A stretch of 64,000 bases of DNA from Daphnia pulex (lineage: Eukaryota > Arthropoda > Branchiopoda > Diplostraca > Daphniidae), in assembly GCF_021134715.1 (NCBI RefSeq), contig NC_060023.1:5208001-5272000 (forward strand), given 5' to 3'. Positions 49,690-54,858 of the stretch are shown here, one piece after another (positions within the stretch are counted from its first letter, which is position 1; each line of letters opens with the position of its first letter). The notes beneath the pieces are model-generated. The model was not told the origin of the DNA. It searched no databases and was given only the letters and a program-made list of their open reading frames with translations. The position numbers and the translations under genes were made by a program.

Positions 49690-51191
49690 CAGCTTAAATT
49701 TTTTGGGTGCCGGGCACCCAGCGGGCATGGAAGCAGAACCGAGACATTTTCAATATCAGTCGGAGCAGTCGCTGGTTGTCTAGCTGGTCCAGCGTGTAGT
49801 CGTTGAGGATGGGAATCAGCGGCCGGTGGTCCAGTACCAGTTCGAATGTAGGTAGGCCCTTGAGGAACTGCTTGCACTTGCTAATGGCCCAGGCCGCTCC
49901 GAGGCATTCCAGCCCGATCATGGCGTATCTTGATTCGGCTGGGGCGATGAATCTTGATCCGGCTTGCACCATCCGCCATTGTCCGTCTGCTTGCTGCTGC
50001 TTCAGGATAAATCCGAGTCCGCGGCGGCGCGATGCGTCGGAGAATAGCTCTGTAGGTCGGGACGGGTCGTAGTAGGCCAGCGCTGGGACATTTAAAAGAA
50101 GACAGCGTGCTGCTACGAATGCTTTGTCGTGGTCGTCGAGCCATACAAATGCGACTTATTTTTTCAGAAGGGGGGGGGGGGGAATGGAGCCAATGCTGTT
50201 GCAATTTCGTTGCTGAAAAGGCCGACTTGTTGGTAGAGGCCGTTGAATGACCGAAGGTCAGTCTTGTCGTTTAGACGATGGAATTCGGCTATTGCTCTGG
50301 TGAGTCCTGGGCTTGGTCCATATCCATTTCTTTCCAGTCGGTATGTCGCCTTCTTGTCGCCTTCTTGTGATGCGAATGCTCTAATTGTCTTCTTGGTGTT
50401 GAAGGAAACGTTGTACTTGTCTGCTCTTTCGACGATCCCCTCTGTCAGGGCCAACATTTCGGGATATGTGGCAGTGTACACGCACATATCTTCCACGCAT
50501 ATGGCGATAGAAAGGTCGCCGAAAATCTGGTGGTAATGGCTCCCGAAGCTATCGCCTGAATGGCTGATCCCCATTGGGAGGCGGGTATACTGGAATAGGC
50601 CGAAAGGGGGAGGAGAAGGTGGTTAGCGTCATTGATTCTTCCTCGAGGCGTACCATGTGGTAGCCCTTGAGGCCATCAAACATGGTAAAGTAGTTCATTC
50701 CGGTTGGAATCGATCACACGGCTTCAAAGGGCGTCTTGTTCGAAAAGATGGTGCCTAGGAACCATTTGTTGAGCTCCTGGAAATCGACTGTAATGCGGAC
50801 GCCTCCTGACACGGATTCTTTTCGTAGTGTGACGACTCCATTGATGAAGGATGTTATGGTTCCTGGTTGTACTGCTCGGAGTAGTCCCTGTTCCACTTGG
50901 CTCATGAGTTCGTCGTGGAACATCTGCATGAGCGGTTCAGCAATGTTTCGATGACCGCGTATCTGTACTGGAATGGCTCCTTCTCGTAGTGTTGGATGCA
51001 CCGGTTCACAATCCATCTCTCTGCAGACTCCGTCGAAGACTTTTGGGTGTGCGCGACCATTAGTTTGGCTAGGTCGAAGTCTCTCTGTTCCTTGGATGGG
51101 CGGTCTGTGTCGGTGATTTGATGGACTCGGAAGTGTGGATAATCGACAGGAATCATCCCTAGTTGTTGCTGCGACGATCTCGATAGGACTG
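49690..51191 (-). pseudogene. Gypsy reverse transcriptase and RNase H
   Basis: Blocks on the minus strand: EPLMQMFHDELMSQVEQGLL and VVTLRKESVSGGVRITVDFQ (fingers), NYFTMFDGLKGYHMV with the first catalytic Asp, LPMGISHSGDSFGSHYHQIF, ICVEDMCVYTATYPEML where YxDD would be (the second Asp is present but the first of the pair reads Glu), KYNVSFNTKKTI and the RNase H block MIGLECLGAAWAISKCKQFL with LVLDHRPLIPIL (about 49790-49940). Frame shifts occur at about 51010, 50710, 50600 and 50170, the last at a poly-G run. Confidence 0.8.
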
Positions 51192-51587
51192 CCCACATAA
51201 CACAAAACATCCGGCGGATGTCCGTGCTAGAGCCGAACAGCCGAAACATATCCTTGTCCCGATGCGGATGTCCAGTGGATGTCCCACTGACGACCTTTTA
51301 GAACATCCGATAGATGGCCGGAAAAGGACAGCAACTCTACGTAGTTTGGCTATCCATATTGATGTGTGGATAGGATGTGTGTTGTATAAATAATTTTCAT
51401 GCGAAAAAAGGAAATTTTTGGAAGAAAATATAAAAAATTCAAGTTTCGTAAATTCGTAATGAAATAGCATTAAGACACAATTGAACCATAAAGCACTTTA
51501 TTTAAGAAAAATTTTTACACAAACATATTTTTTGTACATTGGAAAAAGTCAAAGCACTTGGATCTAGAAAAGATTAGAAAAAAGAGT

Positions 51588-52505
51588 CTAGTCTTCAGGG
51601 AGAGGTGGAGACTGTTGCTGGGATCTACCGGGTGCAATACCGGCTTGTTCGTTAATCTCAGCTTCAAACTGAAGAGGTTCAATCAACTGTTTCTGGCCGT
51701 GTGGTGGCGAACCGACCAGAGCTTTCATGTCATGGTAGTTGAGCGTCTCTTTAAGAAGCAACTCCTCTGCAATCTAAATACAATTCACATCAATAAAAAA
51801 AACTGGCGTGTTGACATTTTCATGTTGTACCTTCTCGAGCATGTGGCGGTGCTGGAGAAAAATACTTTCGGTCCTCTTGTAAGCGCTGGCGATAATATTC
51901 CGAGTTTCGTCATCCATCGTGTTAGCCAATCTTTTACTGTAAGGTCGAACTCCGAATTCCCTCGAATTGCGATCCTCATCCGGGAATAAAATGGGACCCA
52001 TTGATTCATTCATTCCGTACGTTCTCACCTGTCCAAAACAATTTGACGTCACGTAATAAGACGAGATGACAGAAAGCGTGAAAATTTATTCAAACCTGCG
52101 AGTAGGCAATTTTGGTGACTTTATGTAGATCATTTTGTGCTCCGGTTATCACTCGGAACGTGATAGATTCGGCCACTCGCCCGCCTAAGGCCATGCACAT
52201 CTGCCCGAAAAGTTTTTCAGTAGAGAAGAGTCGCTTGTCGGTGGGCGTGTACTGAGCGAATCCCAGGGCCTGGCTCGCACGAGGAACAATGGTCACTTTC
52301 AGAAGAGCGTCAGTGTTGACATTCGCGAGTTAACATTTCGTCAATTTCCACTAAAAGTTGATTTAATGTCTGTTCACTTTCACAAGATGCTCCATCAAAA
52401 GCACCACCACCCTGGGAACGCTGGCGGCCAATGGCATCGATCTCGTCAATGTAAATAATGCAGGAACTCTTTTCGTGCTTCTTTGAACAAATCTCTAAGT
52501 TAAAC
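51588..52505 (-). pseudogene. Captured mitochondrial m-AAA protease fragment (paraplegin/AFG3L2 type)
   Basis: Four exon-like blocks in family order with intron signals kept. About 52310-52505 holds the Walker B region ([17 protein letters not shown] and [10 protein letters not shown]). 52096-52310 holds [19 protein letters not shown] and [12 protein letters not shown]. 51831-52028 holds RTYGMNESMGPILF and DETRNIIASAYKRTESI. 51588-51774 holds IAEELLLKETLNYHDMKALV and ends PPLPED*. In intact m-AAA proteases the end of the ATPase domain and the zinc-binding HEXXH motif lie between the first two blocks; here they are deleted. A frame shift also precedes [10 protein letters not shown]. The fragment cannot be a working protease. 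It lies wholly inside the inverted-repeat element, so host-gene capture is the simplest reading. Confidence 0.75.
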
Positions 52506-52559
52506 AACAACAAAAAAGCAATTAGGATTCGTTTTCAAAAGATAATTAACGTTTCTAAC

Positions 52560-53957
52560 ATACCGGACGCGAGCCGCTTCCAGTCCTCCAACTACTTGGG
52601 GGATTTTGAAGAAGATACGTTTCCATCTGGTTCAACTCCACCTTCCAACACAAGAGCTTTGGCGTCTACTTCCAAATATCATGGTAATTATCTTTTTTTG
52701 TGGTGTTCAGAAAACAATTTTTCAATTTAAATTGTTGTTTTTCAGCAACAAGCAACCGCCCTGGATCTTCAGGCGTTCGTTCCAATGACTATATGGATTT
52801 TGAAGACGAAGATACGTTTCCATCTCGTTCATCTCCACCTTCCAATACATGAGCTTTGGCGTCTACTTCTAAAAATCATGGTAATTATCTTGGTCTATAC
52901 TCTTTATTCGCTTACTTTGTTGGTTATATAAGTAATCTGAATGGAACAGCATGTATTTCAATTGTTTTTTTTTCTTTCCAGCTTCCGGAATTCGCCCTGG
53001 ACCGAGTTGTGATGAAGAAGAGACGTTTTCATCTCGGTCGCATCAAACTTCGAAGAAACGAGCTGTGGTGTCTACTTCAAGATATAGTAATAATCGTGTC
53101 AATTTTCGTTATTGATTTATTGCTGATTATTAATGTTAGAATTATTTTTCTTTATTTAGGTGAAAATATCGTGAGCAAGGAAAACAAACAAAATGAAGCT
53201 GGGAATAGAAGATCCAAAATTTCATCTCGTCCTGGTGGTATGATATTAGTTCATTATTCGTTTAACATTCTCATTGCTGAAGTCGTTTAATTTCCAATTT
53301 TTGTTTGTAGAATCTCCGGATGAGTTTGTACAAAGAGGCATAGTCTCCATAACTCACGATATGAGAGATCTGCGATTCCTGGGATCTGCTGTCTTGGATC
53401 AGCTAAAGAAAATGGAAATGAAACTTATGCGGCATCAGGATCACGACGATGATGACGAGTTTCTTCAAAATCTCCCTCTCAAAACAATGGATGAATTCAA
53501 TTTTTTTGACGAAGAAATTAATAATAAGTCTATTCGGAAGATTTTGGTACGTAATAATTTTGCCACCAATATTATTTTAATTGTGTTCTTAATCTTTTCT
53601 ATCATCTCTTTCTTTAGCATAATCATCTAACTGGGATTGGAGGGCGGGATGGAAGAAATATAGTGTGCTCCATTGCCAAGCGGATATTTTCAAAGGAATT
53701 GGCAAAGAATTTTTCTTGGTTTGGGCAGAAAGGAAACAGGAATCTCTCTCTGACCAATATAGGAAAGGCGATTATGAGTAAATTTTTATTTTCTCTAACT
53801 GTTATATACAAAAGTTAACTCAATTTTAAACGTACTTGTTTTAGGAGCGGCTAAGCGTGAAAAGCCCGTTATTTCTGAACGGGATGTAATAGATGTTATG
53901 ATTGACTTCCTTAGGCACTGCAAGGACAAACCAAGGAACAGACAACAACAGCAATAA
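52560..53957 (+). CDS. DUF4806-domain gene inside the inverted-repeat element
   Basis: Plus-strand exons, some with exact boundaries: about 52560-52683, 52746-52879, 52982-53086, 53160-53237, 53311-53546, 53618-53777 and 53845-53957, ending at TAA. The C-terminal exons encode QNLPLKTMDEFNFFDEEINN, then GIGGRDGRNIVCSIAKRIFS and KELAKNFSWFGQKGNRNLSL, the pattern of the DUF4806 domain found in many arthropod and cnidarian repeat-associated proteins. The three N-terminal exons are repeats of one another (EDTFPS-S-PPSNTRALASTS). The second has TGA where the first has AGA, a nonsense change. The function of DUF4806 is unknown. The start codon was not determined. Confidence 0.6.
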
Positions 53958-54494
53958 AGTTTTCCGGAAAAAGATTAATTCAGTATATTTGTTGAGATCT
54001 GGTTGGTTTCATTTAATTTTCGTTATACAATTTGTTTTGTTCCCATGCGTCCGCTTTGTTGACTTACAATTTGTCCATTTGATCCCCTAATTTTTAGTTT
54101 CCTGTCATTCTGAATTTTCTGTTCTGAAATTTGTTTTCTCCTTTTTGAATAATTTCAGTGTTGATGTAATAAAATGACCTAGAATAATATTACAAAGATT
54201 GCAACAAGATTGATTGAAGGCTTATTTTATTAGTTTTTTACAGTGAATTACACATTTAATAGGCATATTATATGAAATGAAATCAAAGCCAAGGAATGTT
54301 ATCCCTATGTCCCAATTGATGAACGGCGGATGTCGGTAGGCGCCGATTTGGGTAGGTCTTCTAACGTTATTCCGACCTCCGAACGCCCTCCTGTGCGGAT
54401 ATGCGGCGGTCCCTCGGACATCCAACGGATGTTTTGTATGTCCCAGTACGACATCTGGCGAACATCCGTGGGACTGCCGTGTGCTATTTGGGTG

Positions 54495-54858
54495 GTTGCC
54501 TGAGATCTTCTAAGACGTGGACTGTCGACTCTATGCAGCGTGATGACCCGTCGTTGGCCGTCCAGTTGATCGAAGCCTTGAATGATTCTAAAGATTGAAT
54601 GTGATTGCTGGTGGTGGTTTCGGCGTGAGTGCCGGCATTGAGTCGTACATCTCCGAAATGGCTGCAGAAAACTGATGGCGGAATTGCGTCCAAGGTTGAT
54701 CCGGTATCGGGCAGCGTGAGTACCTGAGTGGCCGGTCCTTCTTTGGGGGTGATAGAGATTGCGACTGTGTCTTCTTTATTTGAGGCGATTCGGTTTACGT
54801 AAATTGCCGAAAGTTTACCTTTTACTGGGCAGACGGATTTAACGGATTTGTTTCTCAA
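54495..54858 (-). pseudogene. Gypsy aspartic protease region
   Basis: The open minus-strand frame contains VLTLPDTGSTLDAIPPSVF, with the catalytic DTG of retropepsins, after a Thr/Glu-rich linker. It runs towards RT through the insertion point of the inverted-repeat element (HVLEDLRQP at the left of the join). Confidence 0.8.

Follow-up and report, generated by a model that had tools for sequence, protein, structure and literature searches.

Which kind of transposon is the 3301-bp insert at positions 51192..54492 of a window of 64,000 nucleotides from Daphnia pulex? The window (C7:5208001-5272000 of the 133.2-Mb genome, 13 contigs) was annotated from its sequence, and the insert was proposed as a possibly undescribed inverted-repeat element carrying a gene of the DUF4806 type. 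We consider it very likely that the insert, referred to as the window element in this text, belongs to the cut-and-paste transposons of the animal CACTA type (TRC, CMC superfamily), and that it is non-autonomous and moved in trans by the transposase of related elements. This assignment is based on its ends and flanks and on relatives in other parts of the genome that share these ends.

Ends, copies and target duplications

The left terminal inverted repeat of the window element (51192..51204, plus strand) reads CCCACATAACACA, and the right one (54480..54492, minus strand) reads CCCAAATAGCACA in the inward direction. The repeats are short: 11 of 13 bases agree between the two ends, and only 16 of the first 40. 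Both ends begin with CCC, here as well as in the copies, which is a feature of CACTA/TRC-type elements. The target duplication, TG, stands at 51190..51191 on the left and at 54493..54494 on the right.

Just inside the ends we noticed clusters of GGATG/CATCC-type motifs, mostly of the form CGGATGT/ACATCCG, with six sites in the first 300 bases (51208..51377) and four in the last 300 (54328..54467). These 10 sites in the terminal 600 bases compare with 6 in the 2701 bases between them; when the terminal 600 bases were shuffled 2000 times, the mean was 0.97 sites and the maximum 6. The CGGATGT/ACATCCG form occurs four and three times in the two terminal 300-base stretches and is absent from the middle of the element. 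Subterminal short repeats in both orientations are likewise a CACTA/TRC-type feature.

A genome search for copies and for empty sites yielded the former, with the same ends, and no uninterrupted paralogue (a true empty site) for either flank. There were 23 genome rows matching window positions 52550-54492. In fifteen, the window counted, the match falls within the right-hand 214 bases; 14 come to 9 bases or less from the element end. The other copies in the genome terminate at the same bases as the window element. The terminal pattern itself is common (741 places with up to one mismatch, against 602 for a reversed control), so copies were accepted only on longer matches or on paired ends. Both ends could be located in 10 copies; in further copies, a single end was fetched or recognisable.

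An exact 2-bp duplication was present in six of the 10 both-ended copies (chance 0.078 per copy, P ~3.6e-5): TG in the window element and at C8:2185828, TA at C2:7115322 and C8:3180648, TT at C5:3772599, and AA at C8:4756544. The duplication has no fixed sequence, as is typical of CACTA/TRC elements. The remaining four copies do not show it. Their flanks are TT/TC at C4:8071240, AA/GA at C7:3121618 (GAA/GAA if three bases are counted) and TT/TG at C3:4000144, where the right end is damaged and a large insertion is nested; at C11:6411770 the right GGG is lost. The initial annotation was therefore correct in describing a real inverted-repeat transposon with ends at 51192 and 54492 and TG on both sides, and in stating that its 2-bp duplication is not limited to TA.

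We considered the 10.2-kb copy at C3:4000144-4010367 as an autonomous element but discarded the idea: the 992-bp copy C8:4756544-4757535 matches its outer parts, the interior holds what looks by eye like a non-LTR retrotransposon, and no CACTA transposase was recognised among its open reading frames (ORFs). The nested insertion also contains a 630-base inverted self-match (90%, L056:2109-2738).

Transposase relatives and the DUF4806 gene

The window element has no transposase domain in any of the 13 ORFs scanned against Pfam (all ORFs of at least 60 residues in or reaching into the element, minus two pol ORFs per edge), as the initial annotation had supposed, and must thus be non-autonomous. 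Transposases are found in its relatives. At C10:11322680, a transposase exon lies beside DUF4806 exons and a terminal region of the window-element family; this transposase piece, used as a query, gave 40 match rows in the genome. A related element at C10:5491112-5495263 (4152 bp) has the ends CCCAGGTAGCACAG and CCCAAGTAGCACAG and holds a CACTA-type transposase on the minus strand together with a DUF4806 gene on the plus strand.

In selected transposase relatives, the residues D, D, CxxC, HxxxH and E were retained in 17 of 17 rows. The predicted structure model of one relative matches RAG1 and Transib, and the model seems to terminate in a BAH-like domain; in P0003 the C-terminal domain read in this way spans residues 602-730. 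Among the Daphnia ORFs, L076:1703-2578 reaches DUF4218 with a score just over the cut-off (27.3 vs 27 bits), and the larger transposase ORF, L076:2575-4044, matched no Pfam family. Transposase_21 was over its cut-off in the relative P0020 (29.7 vs 28.6), but not in P0003, P0026 or L076:2575-4044.

Two further observations were made in passing. Three transposase matches with equal scores lie about 13.58 kb apart (C10:10719806, 10733382 and 10746961), a pattern suggesting that a region with a CACTA copy in it was duplicated in tandem. An ORF outside the CACTA element, L075:2311-2595 on the minus strand, has a motif that we take to be of the Kyakuja-Dileera-Zisupton transposase type.

The main gene of the window element (52594..53957, plus strand) has several exons and lacks its 5' part. 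It was correctly described as being of the DUF4806 type (PF16064, E 2.6e-8 on the joined 3' exons), with exon hits at 53310-53549, 53612-53782 and 53769-53954. We listed 26 DUF4806 places in the genome, counting weak ones up to E 1 as well as three window-family copies. Six of them are no more than 3 kb from a transposase match; if the places were scattered at random, 0.08 would be expected within 5 kb. The query itself came from one of the six, and 5 of 25 remain without it. Four of these pairs are divergent and two are arranged in the same direction. The adjoining transposases belong to different subfamilies, being 37–47% identical to the C10:11322680 piece.

We propose that a RAG1-like CACTA transposase from related full elements acts in trans on the window element. 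It would recognise the CCC...CACA ends, excise the element and join it at a staggered two-base cut. Full elements would carry two genes, one for the transposase and one for the DUF4806 protein, and the latter probably binds the subterminal CGGATGT-type sites in the manner of TNPA in plant CACTA elements. The window element has kept the DUF4806 gene, and captured host DNA of an AFG3 gene is found on the side where the transposase would lie.

Several observations weigh against this reading. An intact transposase between exact window-family ends (CCCACATARCACA) was not found in the genome, and the helper is therefore inferred from relatives. The related element at C10:5491112-5495263 shows no target duplication (flanks CG/AC), and its transposase is broken. 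The left terminus CCCAC is one base off CMCWR, which we take to be the CMC consensus. As for the pairing of the two genes, the random-placement expectation ignores the clustering of transposons. For three of the pairs, all on C3, the transposase match is weak (E 7.5e-4 to 3.7e-3), although the one at C3:6375215 is backed by a longer ORF; in two of the three, the DUF4806 gene was recognised only via an 80-base DNA match, and all three may be duplicates of one locus or event. Finally, no transposase match lies within 5 kb of 20 of the 26 DUF4806 places.

The last point would also fit a CACTA element in which DUF4806 is mere captured cargo, like AFG3, with no role in mobility. Short copies of 611–1380 bp that have no matching DUF4806 stretch were moved too, which speaks for this explanation. 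However, DUF4806 adjoins transposases of different subfamilies more often than random placement predicts, and relatives of the protein occur in Daphnia magna. We regard the cargo explanation as unlikely, though one to be taken seriously. The predicted fold of the protein has a mean confidence (predicted local distance difference test) of 42, and no PDB sequence matched it at E 1. A DNA-binding role for it would rest on work from 2023 as cited in a passage of PMC11075544, and none of the literature passages found on DUF4806 connects it with CACTA.

The initial annotation had proposed that an element with CCCA ends and a 2-bp duplication might stand outside the described superfamilies. The lack of a transposase in the element and of a Pfam match for L076:2575-4044 would be compatible with this. 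However, the termini do have a known counterpart: animal CACTA elements named TRC, with ends that start with CCC and with 2-bp duplications, are described in passages of DeMarco et al. 2006 (PMC1636069). According to these, SmTRC1 of Schistosoma shows the 2-bp duplication in 7 of 14 copies, and TRCs occur in Tribolium and Aedes as well. The Tribolium end CCCTAGTAGCACCG agrees with CCCAGGTAGCACAG of the related Daphnia element in 11 of 14 bases. The CMC/Transib/RAG1 residues in all 17 transposase relatives, the DUF4218 match in the second Daphnia ORF and the RAG1-like fold of the predicted model argue in the same direction. The element therefore matches a named group at the superfamily level, and this literature, together with a related element that has a transposase inside, led us to reject an undescribed superfamily as highly improbable.

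A further point against the CACTA reading is a degraded P-type transposase (TNP-like_GBD, PF21788, E 1.1e-6; L068:1908-2565, C9:5305907-5306564), which ends about 0.8 kb inside the family end C9:5307359. It lies in a terminal region of the window-element CACTA family and is either nested or adjacent. Movement by a P-type transposase nevertheless seems very improbable for the window element, since this is a single site among 42 P-type match rows in the genome, with its other end not found; P elements produce target duplications of 7–8 bp, in contrast to the 2 bp here; and CACTA transposase and DUF4806 co-occur at 6 places. Among the 13 ORFs scanned in the window element, none encodes a P-type transposase.

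The CACTA element was inserted into minus-strand ORFs that presumably belong to a gypsy-type pol gene, named by motifs in the ORF list: the reverse transcriptase side is on the left (50714..51191) and the protease side on the right (54495..54858). When 90 bases of each flank were joined with one TG left, the protease frame was open across the join, as was a second of the three frames. If both TGs were left, the protease frame hit stops and one other frame was open. The claim that excision restores the pol frame thus holds for the protease frame, with the reservation that a second frame is open too. The restored frame leads into an ORF ending at 50902, whereas the reverse-transcriptase motifs lie in a different frame (ORF 50714-51205), which means that pol is broken elsewhere as well. 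The frame test agrees with the initial annotation but is modest evidence, weak when taken alone.

Captured host genes and a chimeric protein

About one third of the window element consists of a fragment that had been overlooked. It is a captured genomic piece of a gene for an AFG3-type mitochondrial AAA protease (51590..52591, minus strand), with its introns kept, and it matches C9:7424359-7425764 (in L071). Only Peptidase_M41 (two ORFs, E 3.7e-20 and 5.1e-10) and AAA (one ORF, E 1.5e-7) passed the curated cut-off in the Pfam scan of the element, and all of these hits belong to the AFG3 piece. One of its exons matches AFG3-like protein 2 (6nyy) with E 3.1e-16. Over 51590-52316, 520 of 590 exon bases (88.1%) and 77 of 130 intron bases (59%) are identical to the C9 parent, with exon limits set by us. 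Because the introns are kept, the capture must have proceeded from DNA and not from mRNA. Pack-TYPE elements are characterised by such non-TE sequence of a host gene enclosed by the ends, whose parent is present at another place in the genome.

A sister copy at C8:2185828-2191333 is larger (5506 bp). Its two ends have 98.7 and 99.4% identity to those of the window element, and part of its AFG3 stretch has 98.3%; in the overlap outside the repeated DUF4806 exons, the two copies are 98–99% alike. A DUF4806 exon seems to be tandemly repeated in both (window:52594-53085 and L054:940-1321). The sister contains a stretch of an Rh ammonium transporter (PF00909, E 2.1e-6; PDB Rh type A, E 7e-9), whose parent cluster is on C12, and a ribophorin-I-like stretch (PF04597, E 8.1e-4, under the curated cut-off) with its parent at C7:7809129-7809942. 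It also holds a piece of no recognised kind that is 94% identical to C2:7771795-7772046. Of the two, certain DUF4806 and AFG3 stretches occur in the window copy alone, and the Rh, ribophorin-like and other stretches in the sister alone. Judged from this arrangement, both seem to have arisen by deletion from a single, larger ancestor that carried captured genes.

The sister encodes P0041, an NCBI gene model of Daphnia pulex with 298 residues that maps to L054:3867-5104. It has a ribophorin-like start (E 0.009, under the cut-off), followed by Rh (PF00909, E 2.6e-22) and the AAA domain of AFG3 (PF00004, E 5.3e-15). In this gene model, pieces of three unlinked host genes are joined in one annotated, predicted reading frame. 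Its public name, "ammonium transporter Rh type B-B-like", is misleading, as the protein is a transposon-borne chimera.

Most differences between the captured AFG3 and Rh exons and their host counterparts fall on third codon positions. The mismatches at the three positions number 16/12/46 for AFG3 (657 aligned bases, four blocks) and 8/4/33 for Rh (three exons, 165 codons); these sums do not include an AFG3 block that is partly out of frame (11/8/23, 58 codons), an Rh piece of 18 codons (2/1/4) and a further block of 20 codons. Non-coding identity to the host is 59% for AFG3 and 51% (99/194) for Rh. The ribophorin-like piece is nearer to the host, with 92.8% in the exon and 90.7% in the other part (exon limits roughly set). 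A tree was built from 10 sequences after removal of P0041 as a duplicate. In it, the host gene and the captured Rh segment cluster together (support 0.847), the latter on a long branch of its own.

The third-position bias together with the near-identical copies prompted the idea of a horizontal transfer of the gene-carrying element, a possibility for which we make no claim. The grouping of the Rh segment with the host gene and the closer ribophorin-like piece speak against it. It is possible that the source was a diverged copy, that the captures happened at different times, or that another species was the source.

Relation to known systems

In plants, En/Spm elements encode the transposase TNPD and the DNA-binding protein TNPA, and the subterminal repeats of plant CACTA elements bind the accessory protein. 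The Daphnia elements resemble En/Spm in their two-gene layout and subterminal repeated motifs, but differ in the ends and in the length of the duplication; we know of no relation between DUF4806 and TNPA. One can tentatively imagine, with somewhat less than even chances, that animal CACTA is a two-protein system, in which a RAG1-like transposase ending in a BAH-type chromatin-reading domain and a BEN-type DUF4806 protein binding subterminal sites would form a counterpart of TNPD/TNPA of separate origin. Daphnia versions without transposase would take up pieces of host genes and build chimeric genes, for example that for the C8 ribophorin-Rh-AFG3 protein.

As far as the passages of PMC1636069 go, the Daphnia elements share with TRC the inverted repeats starting with CCC, the 2-bp duplication and a CACTA-type transposase in full elements. 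In contrast to TRC, their second recurring gene is DUF4806, and the window element has no transposase and is partly filled by a host-gene piece. Ten CACTA families, CactaA1-A10, have been listed in Daphnia pulex (Schaack et al. 2010, PMC2884549). They have the host species and the superfamily in common with the window element, which, compared by text passages, may be identical with one of the ten. The passages of that paper on Daphnia pulex CACTA make no mention of DUF4806 or gene capture.

Host gene fragments inside DNA transposons, in some cases with transcripts or reading frames that are chimeric, are described in passages on the Pack-CACTA/Pack-TYPE elements of plants (PMC8903248), on 370 animal Pack-TIRs in 100 genomes (PMC8277862) and on Turmoil-1 of C. 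elegans (PMC2572040). Compared with what these sources say, the Daphnia elements differ in having an animal CACTA carrier, several unlinked host genes in one sister element and a retained DUF4806 gene. The main text of the animal Pack-TIR paper, as far as seen in passages, names CACTA once, citing Arabidopsis, and Daphnia is absent from it. From the passages cited, CCC ends and 2-bp duplications in animal CACTA, CACTA in Daphnia pulex and gene capture by animal DNA transposons are already known. Our literature search, which covered mostly titles and abstracts and few subscription journals, with Repbase and Dfam outside its scope, found no DUF4806-carrying CACTA, no animal CACTA with several host-gene pieces, no CACTA gene capture in Daphnia and no BAH-ended CACTA transposase.

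The ends and the duplication fit animal CACTA, which closes the question of an unnamed superfamily. DUF4806 gains a recurring genomic partner, the CACTA transposase, and with it a testable role. What public databases list as a Daphnia gene is the product of a transposon, made from exons of three unlinked host genes. RAG2 is the histone-reading partner of RAG1; should the BAH-like domain of the predicted model prove genuine, it would hint at a way in which chromatin could be read by a RAG1-like transposase and would offer a point of comparison for RAG/RAG2.
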